NCBI GenBank assembly: GCA_005881275.1
Contig: VBEF01000083.1
Coordinates: 1-36,216 of the forward strand
Direction of reading: 5' to 3'
Source: Chloroflexota bacterium
Lineage (GTDB): Bacteria; Chloroflexota; Dormibacteria; Dormibacterales; Dormibacteraceae
DNA length: 36,216 nt
Positions 2,655-23,168 of the stretch are shown here, in pieces. The position numbers were made by a program, and so were the translations under genes. Under the pieces are notes generated by a model that saw nothing but the letters and a program-made list of their open reading frames with translations, was not told the DNA's origin and ran no database searches. The stretch's first letter is position 1. The number at the start of each line of letters is the position of its first letter.

Positions 2655-3422
2655 CTATTCCGGGGTGACGTAAGCAGCGGTGAGACCGCCGTCGACCAGG
2701 AAGGTCGCTCCATTCACATAGCTCGACTCGTCGCTGGCCAGGAAGAGCGCGGCGTTGGCGATCTCGCGCGCCTTGGCCAGGCGTCCCATGGGCAGGTGCA
2801 CGCGCCTGCGCTGGTAGGCGCCAGGGTCTTCGTTGAAGATGCGCATCAAGAGCGGGGTCTCGACCGGTCCGGGGCAAAGGGCGTTCACGCGCACACCTTG
2901 CCGGGCGAACTGGACGGCGAGCTCACGGCTCATCGACAGGACCGCGCCCTTCGAAGCCGTGTAGGCGATCTGAGAGGTGGCCGCGCCGAGGATCGCGACG
3001 AAGGACGCCACGTTGATCACCGAACCTCCACCAGCTTCGAGCAGGTGCGGGATGCCGTACTTGCAGCAGAGGAAGACTCCTTTCGCGTTGACGGCCTGGA
3101 CTCGATCCCACGCGTCGGGCTCGGTGGTGAGGATCGAGTCGTCGTCCGGCGGCATGATGCCCGCGTTGTTGTAGAGCACGTCGATCCGCTCATAGCGCCG
3201 CACGGTCTCGGCATACATCTCCTGCACGCTCTTGGCGTCGCTGACGTCGGCGGCGAAGAAGAACGCGTCGCGACATTCTGATGCCGTCTTCTCTCCGGCC
3301 TCCCGGCCCACGTCCGCCACGCAGACGCGCGCGCCCTCAGCCGAGAACAACAGCGCGGCCTCGCGGCCGATGCCGCCCGCGGCCCCGGTGATGACGGTTA
3401 CTTTGCCGTCGAGACGCCCCAT
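2655..3422 (-). CDS. SDR-family NAD(P)-dependent dehydrogenase
   Basis: This 255-residue classical short-chain dehydrogenase has the cofactor motif TGAAGGIG (residues 12-19), an acidic residue in CVADV that favours NAD, NNAG (85-88), catalytic Ser140, Tyr154 and Lys158 (YTASK) and the C-terminal VNGATFLVDGG. It would oxidise an alcohol to a carbonyl or the reverse. Its start shares one base with the stop of the glutamine-synthetase-like gene (TGATG), and the permease lies upstream. It is therefore likely to act on the transported amino-alcohol or its gamma-glutamyl derivative. That role is inferred from context. Confidence 0.9.
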   Translation of the reverse strand: MGRLDGKVTVITGAAGGIGREAALLFSAEGARVCVADVGREAGEKTASECRDAFFFAADVSDAKSVQEMYAETVRRYERIDVLYNNAGIMPPDDDSILTTEPDAWDRVQAVNAKGVFLCCKYGIPHLLEAGGGSVINVASFVAILGAATSQIAYTASKGAVLSMSRELAVQFARQGVRVNALCPGPVETPLLMRIFNEDPGAYQRRRVHLPMGRLAKAREIANAALFLASDESSYVNGATFLVDGGLTAAYVTPE

Positions 3423-4798
3423 CAGCCTCGTTCGAAGAGCCGTTCGCGCTCGTAGTTCGTGACGACCTTGTCGAACAGCGACTGCTCGGTGCGCGCGTAG
3501 TTCAGGTAGTGGTCGATGACGTCATCGCCGAACGCCTGGCGGGCCATCGTCCCACGCTCCAGCAGTCCGATGGCGTCGCGCAGCGAACCCGGAAACCGCT
3601 GGACGTCCGACTCGTAGGCGTTGCCTTTGAACTCCGGCGGAAGGTTGAGCTTCTGCTCCACGCCATGCAGCCCGGCGGCGAGCAACGCCGCAAAGCAGAG
3701 GTAAGGGTTGACGTCTGCGCCGGGGATCCGCGACTCGGTCCTCAGGTGCTGCCCGTGGCCGACGATGCGAAACCCGCACGTCCTGTTGTCATGGCCCCAC
3801 GCCAGCGTGGTGGGCGCCCAGCTCCCCGCGGCGTAGCGCTTGTAGGAATTGACGTTCGGCGCGAGGAAGATCGCCAGCTCGGACGCGTACGCGATGTGGC
3901 CCGCCAGGTACTGCTTGAACACATCCGACTCGCCGTCGAACGCGTTGCGCGAGTCCTTCCACAGGCTCGAGTGCACGTGACAGGAGCTGCCGATCCAGCG
4001 ATGGTCGGGTTTCGCCATGAAGGTCACCGAGCAGCCGGCCTGGTGCGCCATCTCCTTGATGCCGTTCTTGTAGATCACATGGTTGTCCGCCATCGTCACC
4101 GCGTCGGAGTAGCGGAAGTTGATCTCCTGCTGGCCGGGCCACGCCTCGCCCTTCGAGCTCTCGACCGGGATCCCGGCGCCCTTCATGCCCTTGCGGACGG
4201 CGCGAAGAAACGGCTCGTCGTAGGTAGTCGCCAGGATGTGGTAGTCGAGGATGTAAGGCACGGACGGCACCAGGTCGATGTAATGCTTGGCATGCGCCTC
4301 CGCATACGTCTCCTTGAGCAGGAAGAACTCGAGCTCGGAGCCGAACATGGGCTCGAACCCGAGCGCGCGCGCCCGCTCGACCTGCGCCCGCAGGACCTGG
4401 CGCGGCGACGGCCGCACCGGCTTGCCGTCGTGCCAGGCGACGTCGCACAGGACCAGCGCGGTGGACTCGAGCCAGGGAATCCGGCGGAGCGACGTGAAGT
4501 CGGGCACGAGGTCGAAGTCGCCGTACCCAGACTCCCAGTTCGCCATCTGATAGCCGGGAATGGGGTCCATCTCCATGTCGAGCGCGAGCAGGTAATTGCA
4601 GCCCTCGACGGACTCGCCGTGTCCTGCCGACTCCATGAAGTACTCCGCGTCGATTCGCTTGCCCATGAGGCGGCCCTGCATGTCCGTGAACGCGACGACG
4701 ACCGTGTCGATGAGACCGTTCTCGATGTCGGACGCAAGCTTGTCCTTGGTCAGCGCCGGCTCGCGGTCGGGCCGAGTCGCCTTGTCCTTGGTCAACAT
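3422..4798 (-). CDS. Glutamine-synthetase-like gamma-glutamylamide ligase (PuuA/IpuC type)
   Basis: This 458-residue protein is a full glutamine synthetase fold: beta-grasp N-terminus (DTVVVAFTDMQGRLMGKRID), metal/ATP glutamates in GSELEFFLL (Glu155, Glu157), PGQQEINFRY (221-230), HVH (274-276), then NSYKRYAAGSWAPTTLAWG, NRTCGFRIVG and RIPGADVNPY. The family ATP-dependently joins glutamate to ammonia or, in this subgroup, to an amine, giving a gamma-glutamylamide. An excellent AGGAGG lies 7 nt before ATG 4798. Clustering with an ethanolamine-type permease and an SDR favours an amine ligase over nitrogen assimilation. The exact amine is unknown. A second ligase at 14031-15314 belongs to the divergent operon. 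Confidence 0.88.
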   Translation of the reverse strand: MLTKDKATRPDREPALTKDKLASDIENGLIDTVVVAFTDMQGRLMGKRIDAEYFMESAGHGESVEGCNYLLALDMEMDPIPGYQMANWESGYGDFDLVPDFTSLRRIPWLESTALVLCDVAWHDGKPVRPSPRQVLRAQVERARALGFEPMFGSELEFFLLKETYAEAHAKHYIDLVPSVPYILDYHILATTYDEPFLRAVRKGMKGAGIPVESSKGEAWPGQQEINFRYSDAVTMADNHVIYKNGIKEMAHQAGCSVTFMAKPDHRWIGSSCHVHSSLWKDSRNAFDGESDVFKQYLAGHIAYASELAIFLAPNVNSYKRYAAGSWAPTTLAWGHDNRTCGFRIVGHGQHLRTESRIPGADVNPYLCFAALLAAGLHGVEQKLNLPPEFKGNAYESDVQRFPGSLRDAIGLLERGTMARQAFGDDVIDHYLNYARTEQSLFDKVVTNYERERLFERG

Positions 4799-9215: not shown

Positions 9216-10705
9216 CCGGGCCGTACGTGATCGGCTGCGATATCGGGAGCCAGGGCACCAACACCGCCCTGTATTCCGACGACGGCCGGCTGGTGGCCTC
9301 TGCTTACGAGGCCTACGACGTGCTCTTTCCTCGGCCCGGGTGGGCGGAGCAGGACCCGCGCGCTTGGATCAGCGCGCTTCATTCGACGTTGCGTCGCGTG
9401 CTCGACGAGGTGACGGAGGGAGGGTCCGCCGTGAAGGCGATCTCCTTCGGATCGCAGCTCGACGGCATGGTCGTCTGCGACGCGCAGGGAAAGCCACTGC
9501 GCAACGCGATGATCTGGATGGACCGGCGCGCCGAGGCGCAGGCCGCGGCCATGGCGCAGCGTGTGACGCGCGAGGACTTCTACCACCAGGTGGGCACCAA
9601 CCTGGATTCTTCGCATGCCGTGTTCAAAGCGCTCTGGGTCAAGGACGAAGAGCCCGACGTCTTCGCCAGCGCCGCTCGGCTCATGCCGCCCGGGTCGTTC
9701 GTGGTCCAGGAAGCGGCCGGCGTATCGATGGTGGATTACTCGAACGCCTCGTCGCTCGCGTTGCTCGACCCCCGGACGCGCAGGTGGTCGGACGCGGTTC
9801 TCGACGCCGCCGGCCTGAAGGCCCGCATGTTGCCCGAGCTCGCGCCCGGGACGCTGGGCGTGGGCACCGTCACCGAGGCCTTCGCGGCCGCGACCGGACT
9901 CGCGCGTGACACAGCCGTGGTCGTTGGATGCGGCGACGAGATGGCCGCCACGCTGGGCGCGGGCGTGTTCTCGCCCGGCGAGGTTTGCGACGTCGTGGGC
10001 ACGGCGGAACCCGTGTGCGCGGTGTCGTCGGCGCCGCGGGAGGACAGCACGATGCTGGTCGAATGTCATCCTCACGGCGACCCCGACAGCTGGCTGCTCG
10101 AAAATCCCGGCTTCGTCTCGGGAGGCAACTTGCGCTGGTGGCGCGATCATTTCTTCGGCCCCGACTCCGAGTACGACGCGATCTGCCGCCCGGCCGCCGA
10201 CGTGGCGCCTGGGGCGGAAGGACTTGTCTTCCTGCCCTGCATGCAGGGCGCGATGGCGCCGGAGTGGAACGGAGCGGCGCGTGGTGTGTTTTTCGGCTTG
10301 AGCCTGGCCCACACCAGGGCGCATATGACCCGCGCCCTGCTTGAAGGCAGCGCTTTTGCGCTGCGCGACATTCTCGAAGCGATGCAGAACGCCGGGCTGG
10401 AGGTTCGGCGCCTGACCATCGTCGGCGGCGGCGCCAGGGGCGCGCTGTGGCGGCAGATCAAGGCTGACGTGACAGGGCTGCCGGTCAGGGTGCCGGTGAA
10501 CGTCGAGACGACCGCGACGGGAGCCGGGATCCTGGCCGCGGTTGGATCGGGCTTGCAGCCGAGCGTCGCGTCCGCGGTCAGCGCGTTCGTTGCCTATCAA
10601 CCGGACGAGCTTCAGCCGGACCCGGAACGCCGCCAGGTTTACGGCGACGCATATAAAAGGTATCGCGAGGTGTACTTCGCGCTGAAGCCCGTCTTCAATG
10701 CCTGA
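9212..10705 (+). CDS. FGGY-family carbohydrate kinase (xylulokinase-like)
   Basis: The protein has 497 residues. It shows VIGCDIGSQGTNTALYSDDG at the N-terminus (phosphate-1 loop), FGSQLDGMVV, GCGDEMAATLGAGV with CDVVGTAEPV, and the adenosine motif TIVGGGARGALWRQIKADVT near residue 410, followed by VETTATGAGILAAVG. These mark a complete FGGY kinase that phosphorylates a sugar or polyol with ATP in the cytoplasm. GTG 9212 overlaps the end of the broken dehydrogenase by 4 bp. Together with the DhnA-type aldolase it suggests phosphorylation followed by aldol cleavage of the carbon skeleton. Substrate specificity is unknown. Confidence 0.9.
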   Translation: MTGPYVIGCDIGSQGTNTALYSDDGRLVASAYEAYDVLFPRPGWAEQDPRAWISALHSTLRRVLDEVTEGGSAVKAISFGSQLDGMVVCDAQGKPLRNAMIWMDRRAEAQAAAMAQRVTREDFYHQVGTNLDSSHAVFKALWVKDEEPDVFASAARLMPPGSFVVQEAAGVSMVDYSNASSLALLDPRTRRWSDAVLDAAGLKARMLPELAPGTLGVGTVTEAFAAATGLARDTAVVVGCGDEMAATLGAGVFSPGEVCDVVGTAEPVCAVSSAPREDSTMLVECHPHGDPDSWLLENPGFVSGGNLRWWRDHFFGPDSEYDAICRPAADVAPGAEGLVFLPCMQGAMAPEWNGAARGVFFGLSLAHTRAHMTRALLEGSAFALRDILEAMQNAGLEVRRLTIVGGGARGALWRQIKADVTGLPVRVPVNVETTATGAGILAAVGSGLQPSVASAVSAFVAYQPDELQPDPERRQVYGDAYKRYREVYFALKPVFNA

Positions 10706-12047
10706 GTCGGTGGTCGCGAGCGACGCCACCCGAGTCTTCCCGCTCGAGCTCGAGCGCCGTTATCCGGTCGTCGTCAGCGGCGATGGAGCCTGGGTGGAGG
10801 ATTCATCCGGCAAGCGTTATCTCGACGCGATGAGCGGCGGCTCGATGGCGGCCACGCTCGGCCACGGACGTCGCGACATCATCGCGGCGACCGCCGCGCA
10901 GGCGATTCGACTCTCGTACGTGCACAACGAGCGGCTGACCAATCCGGCGCGAGAACAGCTTGCCGCCGAGCTCGTCGAGCTGGGGCCGCCCGGCATGACC
11001 CGGGTGCGCTTCACGACCGGCGGTGCGGAGTCAAACGAGATGGCGATCCAGATGGCCCGCAGCTACCACGTCGAACGGGGCGACGGCAAGCGATGGCAGG
11101 TCATCTCTCCCGCGCAGGCTTATCACGGTCCGACGATGGCCACGCTCGGGCTGACGGGACGGCCAGGTTTGCAGCGACCATTCGGGCCCTACATGCCCGC
11201 CCATGGCCATATCCCGCCGAGCACCTGGCGTTTTGATCCGACCGGAGAGGCGGCACTGGCCGCGCTGGATCAGGTGCTCGACGAGATTGGCCCGGAAAAC
11301 GTGTCTGCCTACTTCTGCGAGCCGATCACGGCCGCCGCCCTTCCTGCGTACTCGCCGCCGGAACGCTTCTGGACCGGGCTCGCCGAACGCCGCGAACGCC
11401 ATGGGTTCCTCATCTGTTACGACGAGGTGGTCACCGGCCTCGGTCGCACGGGACACTGGTTCGCGGCCGAAAAGCTGCCGCTGACGCCGGACATCATCGC
11501 GACCGCCAAAGGCCTGGGCGCGGGTTACGCGGCGATCGGGGCGGTGCTGTGCGCCGACCACGTATACCAGGCGTTCGCCGGCGGGTCGCGAAAGTTCACC
11601 GTCGGACACACGTGGGACGGCGCGCCTCTCTCCTGTGCCGTGGGGCTGAAGGTGCTCGATGTGCTGCGGACCGAGGGCCTGATCGAGCGAGTGCGCGATA
11701 AGGGTCCGCGCCTGAGGGGCGAGCTCGCTGCCGCGCTTCAGGGGATCCCCATGGTGCGGGAGGTGCGCGGCCGTGGCTTTTTGATCGGCGTCGAGTACGT
11801 CGACCCGCGTGACGGCACGTCGTTCCTACCGCCGGAGCTCGGCGTGGCGCGCCGTGTCGATCTGACCGCCATGGATCGTGGCCTGATCGTCTACTCGACG
11901 ATGCCCACCCGCGACGGATTCGCCGGCGATCAGACGCTGTTCGCTCCGCCCTTCACCACTTCCGACGCCGAGCTGAGCGAGATGGTGCTGCGATTTGCGG
12001 AGACAATTCGAATCGTGGCGCGATGGCTCGACGGACAGCTCGGATGA
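10698..12047 (+). CDS. Class III aminotransferase (first tandem copy)
   Basis: This 449-residue PLP enzyme carries GGAESNEMAIQMAR, ISPAQAYHGPTMATLGLTGR, the PLP aspartate in CYDEVVTGLGRTG (Asp242) and Lys271 in TAKGLGAGYAAIGAVL, then HTWDGAPLSCAVGL. It should transfer an amino group between an omega-amine (or amino ketone/aldehyde pair) and a keto acid. The start ATG 10698 overlaps the kinase stop by 8 bp. The gene at 12733-14034 is a clear paralogue sharing long motifs, so the pair arose by duplication and may form a heteromer or act on successive intermediates. Confidence 0.92.
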   Translation: MPESVVASDATRVFPLELERRYPVVVSGDGAWVEDSSGKRYLDAMSGGSMAATLGHGRRDIIAATAAQAIRLSYVHNERLTNPAREQLAAELVELGPPGMTRVRFTTGGAESNEMAIQMARSYHVERGDGKRWQVISPAQAYHGPTMATLGLTGRPGLQRPFGPYMPAHGHIPPSTWRFDPTGEAALAALDQVLDEIGPENVSAYFCEPITAAALPAYSPPERFWTGLAERRERHGFLICYDEVVTGLGRTGHWFAAEKLPLTPDIIATAKGLGAGYAAIGAVLCADHVYQAFAGGSRKFTVGHTWDGAPLSCAVGLKVLDVLRTEGLIERVRDKGPRLRGELAAALQGIPMVREVRGRGFLIGVEYVDPRDGTSFLPPELGVARRVDLTAMDRGLIVYSTMPTRDGFAGDQTLFAPPFTTSDAELSEMVLRFAETIRIVARWLDGQLG

Positions 12048-12736: not shown

Positions 12737-14034
12737 CCACCAGCCGAGTGGCCGCGGACCAGACGAGCATCTTTCCGCGCTTTCTCGATTTGGCGTATCC
12801 AAACATCGAGCGCGGCGACGGGGTGTGGCTGTACACGACAAGCGGAGAAAGAATTCTCGACGCATGCTCAGGTGGCGCCATGGTTTCGAGCCTGGGTCAC
12901 GGAGCACGGGAGATCATCGACGCCGGCACGCGACAGGCCGAGAAGATCGCCTACTTCTATATGGACCACTTCACGAACGAGCCGCAAGAGCGGCTGGCGG
13001 AGCGTTTGGTCGCCGTGGCCGCGCCCGAGATGGCGCGCGTGCGCTTCGCCTCGAGCGGTTCGGAGGCCAACGAGACCGCGCTGCGATTGGCGCGGGCTTA
13101 CCACGTCGATCGCGGAGAGCCAGACCGCTGGAGGGTGATCTCCCCCGCGCAGGCCTACCACGGCTCGACGATGGCTACGCTTGCGCTGACCGGCCGCACG
13201 CGCACCCTGCAGGACCCGTACGCGCCTTACCTCTCGCCGCATCTTCACGTCGGCAACGGCGACTCGGCGCTGAGCGAGCTCGATCAGCGACTCGAGGAAG
13301 CGGGACCAGGCAATGTGGCGGCGTTCTTCTGCGAGCCGATCAGCGGCGCTGCCTACCCTGCCTATTCGCCGCCGGAAAAGTTCTGGCGAGGTCTCGACGC
13401 GCGCCGCAAGCAGCACGGATTTCTCATCTGCTTCGACGAGGTCGTCACCGGGATGGGACGCGCAGGGAGCTGGTTCGCCTACCAGCAGCTGCCCATCGAG
13501 CCGGACATTGTCACCACCGGCAAAGGCCTGGGCGCGGGATACGCGCCGATTAGCGCCGTCCTCTGCAAGCAACACGTCTACGACGCGATCGACAGGGGCT
13601 CGCGTTTCTTCGACCTGGGCCACACGTGGGACGGGGCGCCGATCTCATGCGCCACCGGTCTCGCGGTGCTGGACGCGCTGGCCGGCCGCGGCCTCGTGCA
13701 ACGCGTACGTGAGCGGGGACCGCGCCTCCTCGCCGACCTCCGGTCCGCTGTCGAGGACAACCGCCTCGTCGCCGAGGTCCGCGGCCGAGGCTTTCTTCTG
13801 GGGGTCAGCCTGGTCGACCTGCCGGATGAGATGCATGCCGACGAGCGGGTGGAGGATGCCGCGCTCAACCATGGCCTTCTTGTCAGCGCCACCCACTCGA
13901 CAGCCGACGGATACGCCGGTGATGAAGTCCTCCTGGCTCCCGCTTTCACGAGCACAGATGAGGAGCTCGAGATGATGGTCCTCCGCTTCGGGCAGGCGCT
14001 CGCCGATGTTGCCCGATCGTTGGCACAAGGATGA
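12733..14034 (+). CDS. Class III aminotransferase (second tandem copy)
   Basis: The protein has 433 residues from ATG 12733. The frame is open upstream, but ATG 12733 overlaps the amidotransferase stop (ATGA) and matches the N-terminus of the first copy. Motifs are SSGSEANETALRLARAYHV, ISPAQAYHGSTMATLALTGR, CFDEVVTGMGRAG (PLP Asp235) and Lys264 in TTGKGLGAGYAPISAVL, then HTWDGAPISCATGL. It is a complete PLP aminotransferase closely related to 10698-12047. It lies directly before the glutamine-synthetase-like gene. Amino donor and acceptor are unknown. Confidence 0.92.
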   Translation: MTTSRVAADQTSIFPRFLDLAYPNIERGDGVWLYTTSGERILDACSGGAMVSSLGHGAREIIDAGTRQAEKIAYFYMDHFTNEPQERLAERLVAVAAPEMARVRFASSGSEANETALRLARAYHVDRGEPDRWRVISPAQAYHGSTMATLALTGRTRTLQDPYAPYLSPHLHVGNGDSALSELDQRLEEAGPGNVAAFFCEPISGAAYPAYSPPEKFWRGLDARRKQHGFLICFDEVVTGMGRAGSWFAYQQLPIEPDIVTTGKGLGAGYAPISAVLCKQHVYDAIDRGSRFFDLGHTWDGAPISCATGLAVLDALAGRGLVQRVRERGPRLLADLRSAVEDNRLVAEVRGRGFLLGVSLVDLPDEMHADERVEDAALNHGLLVSATHSTADGYAGDEVLLAPAFTSTDEELEMMVLRFGQALADVARSLAQG

Positions 14035-15314
14035 GCAGCGTTACGCCGAGCGAGCACGTCGAGTTCGTGCTCCTTGTCATCCCCGACGTGAACGGCTCGC
14101 TTCGTGGCAAGGCCCTGCGTCCCGACGCCTTCGAAGCCGCCCTCCGGCACGGCACCGTGATGACGGACCTGCTTCTCGCGCTCGACCCGCTGGATACACC
14201 GATTCCGGACTACGAAAAGTTCGGTATCCGGTCTGGCGCTGCCGACCTTGTCGTCCAGCCGGAGCCGTCGACGCTTCACGACATGCGATGGCGGCCAGGC
14301 TGGCGCGTGTGCCTGGGCACGCCGAGCTGGCCGGACGGCAGCCGTTGCGATCTCGCCTCTCGAGAAGTGTTGCGAGGTGCGCTCGCCCAGATGCTGGAGA
14401 CGGGATATGACGCGATGGCGGCAATCGAATACGAGGTGCGCCTGAAGGATGCGGCGAACGTCCCGATGACCACGGGCATCAGCTACAGCGCCGGGGAAGT
14501 CGTTGCGCTCGACTCGTTCGTCAGCGCGCTGCGACCGGCGCTGGAAGGTCTTGGCGTCGAGCTCACCGCCGTGCACACGGAGGCGGCACCCGGGTTGGTG
14601 GAGCTGAACCTGGCGGCCCGCCCCGCGCTGCAGGCGGCCGACGATGCCGCCTATACCAAGCTCGCGGTCAAAGAGCTCGCCCGCTCCATGGATCTGCAAG
14701 CGAGCTTTCTGGCCAAGACGGCCGCCGGAGAAGAGGGATCCAGCGGGCACGTGCATTTCTCATGCTGGCGCGACGGCTCCAACGCGTTCGCGACCGGCGC
14801 CGATGTGATGAGATCCGCGATCGCCGGTGTGCTGGAGCACCTGCCCGCGGCGTCGCTGCTTCTCAACCCGACGATCAACTCTTACAAGCGGCTGGTCCCG
14901 GGCTGGTTCGCCCCGACCAACGTCAGCTGGGGCGTCGAGAATCGGTCCTGCGCGGTGCGCGCGATTACCTCCGCCAGGCCAGAGCTCTGCCGTTTCGAGT
15001 GCAGGCGACCCGGCGCGGACGCCAATCCATACCTCGCGCTGGCGGCGATCGCGGTCGCGGCCGCAGACGGCTTGCGTCGCGGCGCCAGACCGCCAGAACC
15101 GGTGGTCGGAGATGCCTACTCCCGGGCGGACCTGACAATGCTTCCGTCGTCGCTCGAAGCGTCGCTGCTCGCATTCGGGGCCGATACCGTGTTGCAGCGC
15201 GGTCTCGGCGAGACTTTCAGCGACTACTACGCCACCTCGCGCTCCTGGGAGCTGAAGGCCTGGCAGGAGACGGTGACCGAGTGGGAGAAGATCCGCTACG
15301 AGCGGAGCGTCTGA
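14031..15314 (+). CDS. Glutamine-synthetase-like gamma-glutamylamide ligase (second copy)
   Basis: The protein has 427 residues, about 30 fewer than the divergent ligase. Active-site elements are present: AAIEYEVRL (Glu133, Glu135), TEAAPGLVELNLA (Glu184, Glu191), GHVHFSCW (His240, His242), NSYKRLVPGWFAPTNVSWG and RRPGADANPYLAL. One difference is Leu in place of Gln in the PGQ.E motif seen in the other ligase. It probably ligates glutamate to an amine, with a substrate pocket unlike 3422-4798. It is the last gene of the operon (ATGA overlap with the aminotransferase) and runs 19 bp into the convergent PuuD-like gene. Confidence 0.87.
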   Translation: MSSVTPSEHVEFVLLVIPDVNGSLRGKALRPDAFEAALRHGTVMTDLLLALDPLDTPIPDYEKFGIRSGAADLVVQPEPSTLHDMRWRPGWRVCLGTPSWPDGSRCDLASREVLRGALAQMLETGYDAMAAIEYEVRLKDAANVPMTTGISYSAGEVVALDSFVSALRPALEGLGVELTAVHTEAAPGLVELNLAARPALQAADDAAYTKLAVKELARSMDLQASFLAKTAAGEEGSSGHVHFSCWRDGSNAFATGADVMRSAIAGVLEHLPAASLLLNPTINSYKRLVPGWFAPTNVSWGVENRSCAVRAITSARPELCRFECRRPGADANPYLALAAIAVAAADGLRRGARPPEPVVGDAYSRADLTMLPSSLEASLLAFGADTVLQRGLGETFSDYYATSRSWELKAWQETVTEWEKIRYERSV

Positions 15315-18438: not shown

Positions 18439-19773
18439 ATGGTCATGGAGGCCGTCAAGGCCCTCAGCGCGGAAGAGATCACCGAACTCTGTCTGCGCCA
18501 CACGCTGTATGACTGGTCGGCACAGGCCGGCCTGAAACCCCTTCCGGTGGCCAGCGCGAAGGGCGTGTACTTCCACACAGCGGACGGGCGCCGCTTCATC
18601 GACTTCAACAGCCAGCTCATGTGCGTCAACGCGGGTCACGGCGACCGGCGGATCATCGACGCGATAAAGCGCCAGGCCGAGCACCTGCCCTACATCAGCC
18701 CGTTCATGGCCCACGAGGCGCGGGCGCGCCTCGGCGCCAAGCTCGCCCAGCTGCTGCCTGGCGACATCGACAAGGTCTTCTTCACTCTGGCCGGCGCCGA
18801 CGCAAACGAGAACGCGATCAAGATCGCTCGCGCTGTCACCGGACGCCACAAGGTCCTCGCCCGCTACCGCTCGTATCACGGCTCGACCGGCAGCGCCGTG
18901 CAGGCGACCGGCGACCCAAGGCGCTGGGCGAACGAGAACCCAGGGGGCGGAGTCGTGCACGTACTCGATCCGTACCACGGCATCCAGCGCGGATGGGACG
19001 CCGTCGAGGAGGCGCTCGCCGACCTCGACGAGACGATTCAGCTCGAGGGGCCGCAGACGATCGCGGCGTTCATGCTCGAGCCGATCGTCGGCACGAATGG
19101 GATCCTGATCCCCCCTGACGGTTACCTGCAGGGCGTGAGAGCTCTGTGCGATCGCTACGGCATCCTGATGATCTGCGACGAGGTCATGACCGGATTCGGA
19201 AGAACGGGCCGGTGGTTCGCGGTCGACCATTGGGCGGTGGTGCCCGACATGATCACGATGGCGAAGGGGCTGACGAGCAGCTATGTGCCGCTGGGCGCGG
19301 TCGGGATGCGCCCAAAAGTTGCCGCGTACTTCGAAGACCACGTGTTTTACGGCGGACTCACCTATAACAGCCATCCGCTGGGCTGCGCCGCCGCGCTTGG
19401 CGCGATCCAGGCTTATGAAGAAGACGATATGGTCGGCAATTCGCAGCGCATGGGCGCCGTGCTGGCGCGGCACCACAAGCAGCTGCGCGAGAGGCATCCC
19501 TGCGTCGGGGCGGCGCGATCGATCGGATTGTTTGGGTGCCTCGAGCTTGTCCGCGACAGGCAGACGCTGGAACCGCTTGCGCCATTCAACGGCACATCAC
19601 CCGAGATGAAGGCGATCTCCCAGGCGCTCCTCGAGGCGGGCATGCACACGTTCGTGCGCTGGAACACGATCATGACCAACCCACCGCTGTGCATCACCGA
19701 AGCCGAGCTCGCTGAAGGCTTCGAGATCCTTGACAGTGCGCTCGAGATTGGAGACCGAGCGATCCTGGATTAG
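18439..19773 (+). CDS. Class III aminotransferase (taurine/omega-amino acid type)
   Basis: The protein has 444 residues. It opens with LCLRHTLYDWSAQAGLKPLP, GVYFHTADGRRFIDFNSQLM and NAGHGD, as in the taurine:pyruvate/omega-amino acid aminotransferase group. Other motifs are AGADANENAIKIAR, RYRSYHGSTGSAVQATGDPR, FMLEPIVGTNG, ICDEVMTGFGRTG (Asp247) and the PLP lysine Lys276 in TMAKGLTSSYVPLGAVG. It is clearly distinct from the tandem pair in the upstream operon. It overlaps the downstream CoA-ligase-like gene by up to 44 bp, so deamination of an omega-amino compound and CoA activation of the product may be linked. Translation probably starts without a leader. Confidence 0.88.
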   Translation: MVMEAVKALSAEEITELCLRHTLYDWSAQAGLKPLPVASAKGVYFHTADGRRFIDFNSQLMCVNAGHGDRRIIDAIKRQAEHLPYISPFMAHEARARLGAKLAQLLPGDIDKVFFTLAGADANENAIKIARAVTGRHKVLARYRSYHGSTGSAVQATGDPRRWANENPGGGVVHVLDPYHGIQRGWDAVEEALADLDETIQLEGPQTIAAFMLEPIVGTNGILIPPDGYLQGVRALCDRYGILMICDEVMTGFGRTGRWFAVDHWAVVPDMITMAKGLTSSYVPLGAVGMRPKVAAYFEDHVFYGGLTYNSHPLGCAAALGAIQAYEEDDMVGNSQRMGAVLARHHKQLRERHPCVGAARSIGLFGCLELVRDRQTLEPLAPFNGTSPEMKAISQALLEAGMHTFVRWNTIMTNPPLCITEAELAEGFEILDSALEIGDRAILD

Positions 19774-21770: not shown

Positions 21771-22718
21771 ATGATCGGGTTTTCCTACACTGGGCACAGA
21801 GTTGACGTGACCTTCCTCAACGTTGTGCTGCCGCTGGGGTCATCCGTCCTTAGCTTCGCCTTCGCGGCCATGGTCTTGGACCAGTGGTGGCAGCGGCGCC
21901 AGGGCTTCCAGCTTGTGTGGGGGATCGGACTCGTCTGGTACGGGATCGCCGCGGGCTCCGAATTCTGGGGCGGGGCGTTCGGGTGGAGCGAGACCGTCTA
22001 TCGCACGTGGTATCTGATCGGCGCATTCTTTGTCGCGGCCTACCTGGGCGCCGGAACGGTCCTTCTGCTCGCGAAAACGCGATTTGGATATTTCGTGGGA
22101 GGGACCGTCCTGTTCGGTGGTCTCCTCTCGCTGCTGTTCAGTCACTCCCCACGCTATCCCGGCGCTGCGACCGCCGGCAACGTCACCTTTGCCATCGCGT
22201 TGGTGGGAGGAATCGCGATCATCGCCGCGACTGCCAGCCGCCGCGAGCTGGCGGCGCGCATTGCGATGGGCGTGCTGGTCGTTGCGTCGATTGGAGTCGG
22301 GTACCTGGTGCTGACGGCGCCCCTGCAAGCTCCAGGTTGGGCACTCGACAGCAACACACACGTGCCAGTAGGAGCGGCCTTTCCCGGATACGTCCGGGTG
22401 CTGACCGGCCCATTCAACATCGCCGGCGCGCTGTGCCTCATCTTCGGTGGGATCTATTCGGCATACGTCTACATGGGCAGACTGAACTCGCGCGTGCCGG
22501 CCACGATCCTGATCGCCGTCGGAGCGTTCATCCCCGGCCTGACCAGCAGCCTGAACCGCTTCGGCGTCACCTGGTCGTTCTTTCTCGGCGAGTTCCTGGG
22601 CCTGCTCCTGATCTTCGTGGGCTTTCTCGTCAGCGTGGATGTGTTCAGGAACGTGCGAATCGGGATCACTCTATGGTCGCGACACCCGTCGGCTTCACTC
22701 GAAAGTGAGGTCGGTTGA
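21771..22718 (+). CDS. Polytopic membrane protein of unknown function
   Basis: The protein has 315 residues and about eight to nine membrane segments, for example LPLGSSVLSFAFAAMVL, LVWGIGLVWYGIAAGSEFW, TWYLIGAFFVAAYLGAGTVL and FFLGEFLGLLLIFVGFLVSV. I do not recognise a named family. Short loops and repeated Gly/Trp/Tyr in membranes suggest a sensor-like or small-solute protein. The ATG at 21771 is used here. GTG 21807 is an alternative preceded by a -10-like TACACT (21786-21791), and that would leave room for a promoter between this gene and divergent marR. The 3' end overlaps the convergent OsmC gene by 24 bp. Confidence 0.65.
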   Translation: MIGFSYTGHRVDVTFLNVVLPLGSSVLSFAFAAMVLDQWWQRRQGFQLVWGIGLVWYGIAAGSEFWGGAFGWSETVYRTWYLIGAFFVAAYLGAGTVLLLAKTRFGYFVGGTVLFGGLLSLLFSHSPRYPGAATAGNVTFAIALVGGIAIIAATASRRELAARIAMGVLVVASIGVGYLVLTAPLQAPGWALDSNTHVPVGAAFPGYVRVLTGPFNIAGALCLIFGGIYSAYVYMGRLNSRVPATILIAVGAFIPGLTSSLNRFGVTWSFFLGEFLGLLLIFVGFLVSVDVFRNVRIGITLWSRHPSASLESEVG

Positions 22719-23168
22719 GATCTCGATCGCCTTTTCGATGCTCCTGGCGACAGGGCACCTCGCGGCGTGGTGGGAATGCGCCCGCTCGGCGGCATCGCGT
22801 TTCTCCTCGTCGCAGCCCCGGAGCGTGTAGCGGACGTGGATCTTCTTGATGACCAGGATTTTCTCCTCGACGTAGATCTCGCCTTCGGCCTCTGACGTCA
22901 GCCGGCCCTCACTCGCGTCGATCCCGCGCGCTTCCAGCGCGCCCCCGAGCGTCCCGGTCAGTCAACCGGCTGCGGCGGCGACCACATAATCGAGCGTGGT
23001 TGCGTGTTCGGGGTACTGGCCCGGGGCCGTTCCGTAGTGCTCTCGGACCGGCCCGTGGGTGCCGAAGATCACCGGTTGCGGCTCGACAGGCAGGTACGCC
23101 TGACGGATCGGGCCCCGCTCCCGGACGATCCTTACCTTTGAGATGTAGACCGGCCTGGGTGTCTCCAC
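22695..23168 (-). CDS. OsmC-family protein with in-frame TGA at the catalytic cysteine: probable selenoprotein
   Basis: From GTG 23168 the frame encodes METPRPVYISKVRIVRERG to TTLDYVVAAAAG, meets TGA at 22964-22962, and continues in the same frame as LTGTLGGALEARGI to IHVRYTLRGCDEEKRDAAE, HHAARCPVARSIEKAIEI and a TGA stop at 22697-22695, 157 residues in all. In OsmC/Ohr-type peroxide reductases of this pattern the residue after AAAAG is the peroxidatic cysteine (AAAAGC.TGT.GGALEARG). Here codon 69 is TGA. The second conserved cysteine, Cys138 (RCPVA), is intact. No other frame break exists, and coding character is equally good on both sides. A hairpin suited to a bacterial SECIS starts 19 nt after the TGA. 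A nonsense mutation or read error is the alternative. Confidence 0.8.
22926..22942 (-). promoter_or_regulatory. Candidate bacterial SECIS hairpin
   Basis: In the mRNA sense the 17 nt read GCGCGCU-GGA-AGCGCGC, a perfect 7-bp stem with a three-base loop starting with G. The loop begins 26 nt after the TGA at 22962, inside the 16-37 nt range and with the loop-G feature described for bacterial SECIS elements. The same bases encode GALEARG, which tends to be self-complementary in GC-rich genomes, so the hairpin alone is not proof. Confidence 0.5.

Follow-up and report, generated by a model that had tools for sequence, protein, structure and literature searches.

The Ohr/OsmC enzymes are thiol peroxidases with two conserved cysteines and are reduced by lipoyl systems, according to the accessible part of PMC8945050, where an arginine and a glutamate near the peroxidatic cysteine are also mentioned and the YhfA-type relatives, which lack both residues, are termed uncharacterized. 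The accessible text of PMC1088965 gives three sequences of an OsmC-like selenoprotein from the Sargasso Sea with the motif UXXT, that of PMC2398784 gives five from GOS with UxxT, and the reviews PMC9312934 and PMC13188914 list the OsmC-like selenoprotein as UxxT in the sections available. The NCBIfam model NF041052 (OsmC-related (seleno)protein, OsmC_like_Se) appears, from its motif, to represent this same marine UxxT family.

The window considered here, a stretch of 36,216 nucleotides from a Chloroflexota genome (2.94-Mb draft, 86% complete), carries a gene of the OsmC family with an in-frame TGA, which we take, with a probability of about 95%, to be a selenocysteine (Sec) gene with Sec at residue 69. 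The earlier note on this DNA had placed a frame with a single TGA at 22695-23168. The frame is real and lies on the minus strand, which was missing from that description, while the plus strand of the same interval contains several stops in the frame that had been given. Read from 23168 to 22695, the minus strand encodes 157 residues, is interrupted by just one internal TGA, at codon 69, and closes with a terminal TGA. The elements of the gene are the following:

22695..23168, minus strand: Sec-OsmC gene (the window gene), GTG start at 23168, 157 residues with predicted Sec at 69, terminal TGA at 22697-22695.
22964-22962, minus strand: in-frame TGA, predicted Sec codon 69, a TGA in 36 of 36 distinct core genes.
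22942-22926, minus strand: putative bSECIS hairpin GCGCGCU-GGA-AGCGCGC, a stem of 7 bp capped by a 3-nt apical loop that begins with G, the loop lying 26 nt from the TGA.
22757-22755, minus strand: Cys138 (TGC), second conserved OsmC cysteine and putative resolving residue, invariant in 31 of 31 alignment rows.

The flanks of the codon, AAAAG-U-LTGTLGGALEARG, read as had been claimed (AAAAG before the TGA, LTGT.GGALEARG after it), and the motif at Sec69 is U-L-T-G, i.e., UxxG. The intact Cys138 and the complete OsmC-like protein that had been reported are both borne out, the read-through frame of 157 residues scoring 52.1 bits against Pfam OsmC (PF02566, gathering cut-off 27.5). An AlphaFold2 model of the protein, calculated from 31 sequences with Cys in place of Sec, has a mean pLDDT of 96.9, and its best Foldseek matches in the PDB are OsmC/Ohr proteins (2onf, TM 0.75 by query length). 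A phmmer search with the window protein gave no match among the PDB sequences at E 0.1, and a profile of A1 gave eight weak matches (E up to 1), six of them OsmC-type or hypothetical proteins and two plainly unrelated chains.

The window gene and the NF041052/marine UxxT genes have in common the OsmC family, the alignment column of the Sec residue, and a predicted hairpin after the TGA, but they differ in the motif (UxxG versus UxxT) and in the hairpin sequence. Membership of the window gene in NF041052 is ruled out by its score of 14.4 bits, against a cut-off of 95, and by the UxxG motif, and none of the three NCBIfam models found at E up to 0.1 reached its own cut-off on the window protein. 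Of 400 genomes examined in the phylum, 26 have loci scoring above the NF041052 cut-off, and the best 20 of these loci comprise 19 Sec genes, with ULLT, ULAT or UMLT in 18 and UTLS in one (L118), and one Cys gene (L108). The latter (G357 C8:95038-95463) lies among Sec-type genes in the tree, and its genome also has a clade-B gene (L080; see below).

A tree built from 48 rows separates the NF041052 rows from the UxxG rows by a branch supported at 100/97; long branches meet at this point, as the tool warns, so that the branching order at depth is unsure. The three Cys paralogues of the window's own genome, which are long rows, group with NF041052. The UxxG side is made up of the window subfamily, the Cys gene L075, and a distant clade B with UMYGT (L077-L081, same phylum), whose Sec-OsmC genes are 35-42% identical, have other hairpin sequences, and in three of five cases lack the seven-pair stem in register. 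Three genomes (G020, G027 and G030) carry both UxxG and NF041052 (UxxT) Sec-OsmC genes. By sequence, the window gene groups with UxxG genes that make up a second predicted Sec-OsmC subfamily, distinct from that already described with UxxT. The earlier statement that OsmC-like selenoproteins are an established class is correct for UxxT, but the window gene falls in a different subfamily.

The UxxG subfamily was found neither in NCBIfam nor in the literature searched, and it may be described in Haft and colleagues (2023, 2025; cited in PMC13188914). The deep-Sep paper (PMC12013277) has no occurrence of OsmC, Chloroflex-, Dormi- or soil, and the literature searched contained nothing joining Dormibacter- with selenocysteine, or selenoproteome with Myxococc-; the papers on Dormibacterota with selen- deal with other subjects by their listings.

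With the Ohr/OsmC/YhfA thiol peroxidases (PF02566, TIGR03562, TIGR03563) the window protein shares the fold and the two catalytic cysteine columns (Sec69 and Cys138), both kept in 31 of 31 alignment rows, and it differs from them by Sec in place of the first Cys and by Leu in place of the canonical Glu. Its scores against the two TIGR models are 21.9 bits for TIGR03562 (cut-off 85.8) and 24.7 bits for TIGR03563 (cut-off 166.15). The glutamate of the canonical Ohr/OsmC enzymes, which we take to lie ten residues before the catalytic Cys, corresponds to Leu59 here; the next residue, Asp60, is invariant in 31 of 31 rows, and the substrate may therefore differ. Arg22, kept in at least 90% of the 31 rows, is by alignment a candidate active-site arginine. 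The TGA had been assigned to the peroxidatic-cysteine position, and the homologues do have a Cys column there, the word peroxidatic being carried over from the family.

On this basis, the following course of events can be proposed. The UGA would be decoded by SelB with Sec-tRNA(Sec), owing to the mRNA hairpin (bacterial SECIS) that starts 19 nt behind it, and would place Sec69 in the first (peroxidatic) cysteine column, with Cys138 in the second. The selenolate of Sec69 would reduce a peroxide or another oxidant, and a Sec69-Cys138 selenenylsulfide would then form, to be reopened by a cellular reductant. On the comparative evidence given below, SelB and tRNA-Sec almost certainly read the UGA as Sec, while the peroxide-reducing step is, with some reserve, the reaction that we favor.

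A reading that differs from the above in the reaction only is that the UGA encodes Sec in a thiol/selenol enzyme of the OsmC fold acting on a non-peroxide substrate. The Leu at the canonical Glu position, followed by an Asp that never varies, speaks in its favor, as do the failure to find an operon partner and the existence of YhfA-type relatives that lack Arg and Glu and are called uncharacterized in the accessible text of PMC8945050. The retention of both catalytic cysteine columns in every row and the OsmC/Ohr fold argue against it, and we hold it to be a real but lesser possibility. It is unlikely, in our judgment, that several further features apply together, namely that the OsmC subfamily is old and mainly Sec-only across Dormibacteria, other Chloroflexota and Myxococcota, that its active site was remodelled around selenium (with loss of the Glu and an invariant Asp at the following position) for some reaction different from the usual reduction of organic hydroperoxides, and that its Sec originated, or was retained, independently of the co-resident UxxT family.

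The assignment of residue 69 as Sec, which the peroxide and non-peroxide readings share, draws first on the conservation of the TGA. In the relatives sample of 101 genomes (the own genome and 100 relatives), 32 have a match, and 33 of the 35 matching places contain exactly one in-frame TGA. The two exceptions are L045, which has TGG at the codon, and a 61-residue fragment with TAG in G050. The phylum sample (400 genomes, overlapping with the relatives sample) has matches in 37 genomes and one TGA in 37 of 42 places, the other five being L045, the Cys gene L075, and three G050 fragments. L066 lies in genome G446, labelled Myxococcota in the tree; of 195 genomes from that phylum, 17 have a match, with one TGA in 16 of 17 places and a fragment without the TGA column in the remaining one. 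Altogether there are 57 distinct TGA genes in the fetched loci, counting near-copies (e.g., L028 and L029) and the truncated L076, and they come from Dormibacteria, other Chloroflexota, and the group placed in Myxococcota. Relatives of the window gene occur in 16 named records, all with the same TGA: ten are labelled Chloroflexi, three Candidatus Dormibacteraeota or Dormiibacterota, and the remaining three Bacillota, unidentified bacterium and Deltaproteobacteria, respectively. A tblastn search of plasmids at E 1e-5 gave no match. Judged by these sequences, conservation of the TGA reaches well beyond the genus.

For a core set of 36 distinct genes, from which L045, L075, L076, clade B (L077-L081) and the Myxococcota-sample loci were left out, the TGA is in the column in all 36, and dN/dS has a median of 0.204 upstream and 0.245 downstream of the TGA (median dS 1.23 and 1.00, with 502 and 562 of 630 pairs usable, respectively). 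The part after the TGA is, by this measure, under purifying selection. The argument that a nonsense mutation would rarely hit this one codon by chance is thus strengthened, with 33 of 35 places and the entire core set having the TGA, and a search for close relatives with Cys plus decay found none, since the close relatives keep the TGA.

The homologous column has also been examined in Cys-containing OsmC genes. L075 (G429, same phylum), which is 45-46% identical to the window gene and similar to it in length and in the motif region, differs by a TGC at the Sec column and by a stem that is not kept. The three other OsmC genes found in the window's own genome have Cys both at the Sec column and at the second site. 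The question raised in the earlier note, of whether the column is Cys or Sec in OsmC homologues, is answered by these four Cys genes on the one hand and by the Sec TGA of the UxxG relatives on the other.

The predicted hairpin starts 19 nt after the TGA and consists of seven base pairs closed by the loop GGA, 26 nt from UGA to loop. It lies within the bSECIS constraints set out in the accessible part of PMC13188914, i.e., an apical loop of 3-9 nt, an upper stem of 4-16 bp, a G in the first two loop positions, and 16-37 nt from the UGA to the loop. Taken alone, the fold of the window gene is unremarkable, 7.3% of its synonymous recodings being equally good. Across the 36 core genes the codons of G76, A77, L78, A80 and R81 show homozygosities of 0.94-1.00 versus 0.31-0.39 expected, where the expectation comes from the genes' own codon usage; the 1000 simulations ignore sequence relatedness, the real control being the rest of the same genes. 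There, the other four- and six-fold codons tested reach at most 0.62 (G68, R124 and S143 lie at 0.58-0.62, with none of the 1000 simulations as high), and the two- or three-fold codons of F156 and I107 are invariant. The codon of G82, just behind the stem, has a homozygosity of 0.76, and that of E79, with its third base closing the loop, varies.

All seven pairs are in register in 53 of the 57 distinct TGA genes, and the triloop begins with G in all 57, while synonymous recoding gives all seven pairs in about 7%. The four genes without the seven-pair hairpin in register are L077, L078, L079 and L102, for which RNAfold gives weaker or shifted hairpins. In the clade-B genes L080 and L081 the register of the stem is maintained although one pair has changed from G-C to C-G, which represents one event at most.

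L045 (G035 C49:15837-16220), which combines TGG at the Sec codon with a stem mismatch and a different N-terminus, is an apparent case of Sec loss, with the mismatch as expected afterwards. In the Cys gene L075 RNAfold predicts another stem, of six pairs, in place of that of the Sec genes. L075 requires no SECIS and yet has a predicted stem, and a stem as such is therefore no proof; the L045 and L075 comparisons are, moreover, two cases only. We consider the hairpin to be a putative SECIS for SelB.

The own genome contains all four components of the Sec machinery whose presence had been proposed as a check, so that the objection of missing machinery falls away. The tRNA-Sec (selC) scores 69.3 bits, against a gathering score of 47, and is called by ARAGORN as tRNA-SeC with anticodon tca. 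SelA (504.7 bits) is directly followed by selB (341.3 bits, with both SelB-wing_2 and SelB-wing_3), and the selD gene (287.7 bits) likewise contains a Sec TGA, at the U of HGAGUACK. This selD is L018 (G000 C118:19484-20254), apparently cut by the contig end.

In the relatives sample selA is found in 27 of the 30 genomes with a TGA copy, in 52 of the 71 others, and hence in 79 of 101 overall. Since it is common in relatives anyway, selA co-occurrence alone is weak evidence, though compatible with the assignment. Of the more distant genomes, 36 have a match, including one with the Cys gene and one with a fragment, and selA is present in 35 of them. A TGA copy with no selA match occurs in G007 (95% complete), G466, G015 (70% complete) and G028 (59% complete). 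The tRNA-Sec search covered the own genome and G446, the latter having selA and no tRNA-Sec above the Rfam cut-off, with a tRNA-Ser as its best match.

The data above also bear on two readings in which the codon is not Sec. Decoding of the UGA as Trp, Gly or Cys, by another genetic code or a suppressor tRNA, would account for a frame that is open through the UGA, and L045 has indeed Trp (TGG) at this codon, but UGA terminates the window gene and 37 of the 46 loci read, selA, selB, selD and tRNA-Sec are present, the aligned homologues have Cys, and another code would need no conserved hairpin, which makes this reading very improbable. That a Cys-type osmC gene is in decay here, its TGA being a nonsense mutation or a sequencing error, can be dismissed almost entirely, for although decay exists in the family (L045, with its TGG, broken stem pair and different N-terminus, and G050, with fragments only), the TGA of all 36 core genes and 16 named records, a dN/dS of about 0.25 after it, and the frozen hairpin codons speak against it, and for the family as a whole conservation already refutes a nonsense mutation. 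The conserved TGA, the hairpin, the Sec machinery and the Cys at the homologous column together point to a selenocysteine gene, in agreement with the probable selenocysteine protein of the earlier note, whose case is borne out by the machinery and by the close relatives that keep the TGA.

In the neighborhoods of 46 loci the sole recurring neighbor of the window gene is the ORF 21771-22718, found at 11 of them (the window and ten close relatives). This ORF (plus strand, 315 aa) is without a Pfam match, appears hydrophobic by eye, and has a convergent overlap with the 3' end of the Sec-OsmC gene. The coordinates of three other groups of 11 loci show this same stretch read out of frame or in antisense, a group of 21 loci corresponds mostly to the beginning of osmC, and the window is absent from the groups of 43, 14, 9 and at most 8 loci. 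No functional partner of the window gene is shown among the 46 loci, and one is possible in other lineages. Elsewhere in the window, 3422-4798 (minus strand), 14031-15314 (plus), 10698-12047 (plus) and 18439-19773 (plus) are two glutamine synthetase-type genes and two class-III aminotransferases, perhaps of amine or polyamine metabolism.

Gene callers that halt at TGA would split the window gene in two. Since, in addition, no scanned NCBIfam model reaches its cut-off, the UxxG subfamily is likely to have been annotated wrongly in the genomes where it occurs. The compact, strongly conserved candidate SECIS, together with the apparent natural loss in L045 and the Cys counterpart L075, offers material for a study of Cys/Sec exchange. 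The use of selenium in redox proteins is better described from marine and anaerobic bacteria. The expectation that this organism would use selenium agrees with the tRNA-Sec, selA, selB and selD of its own genome, and the present results suggest the presence of a selenium-containing redox protein in uncultured lineages from soil.
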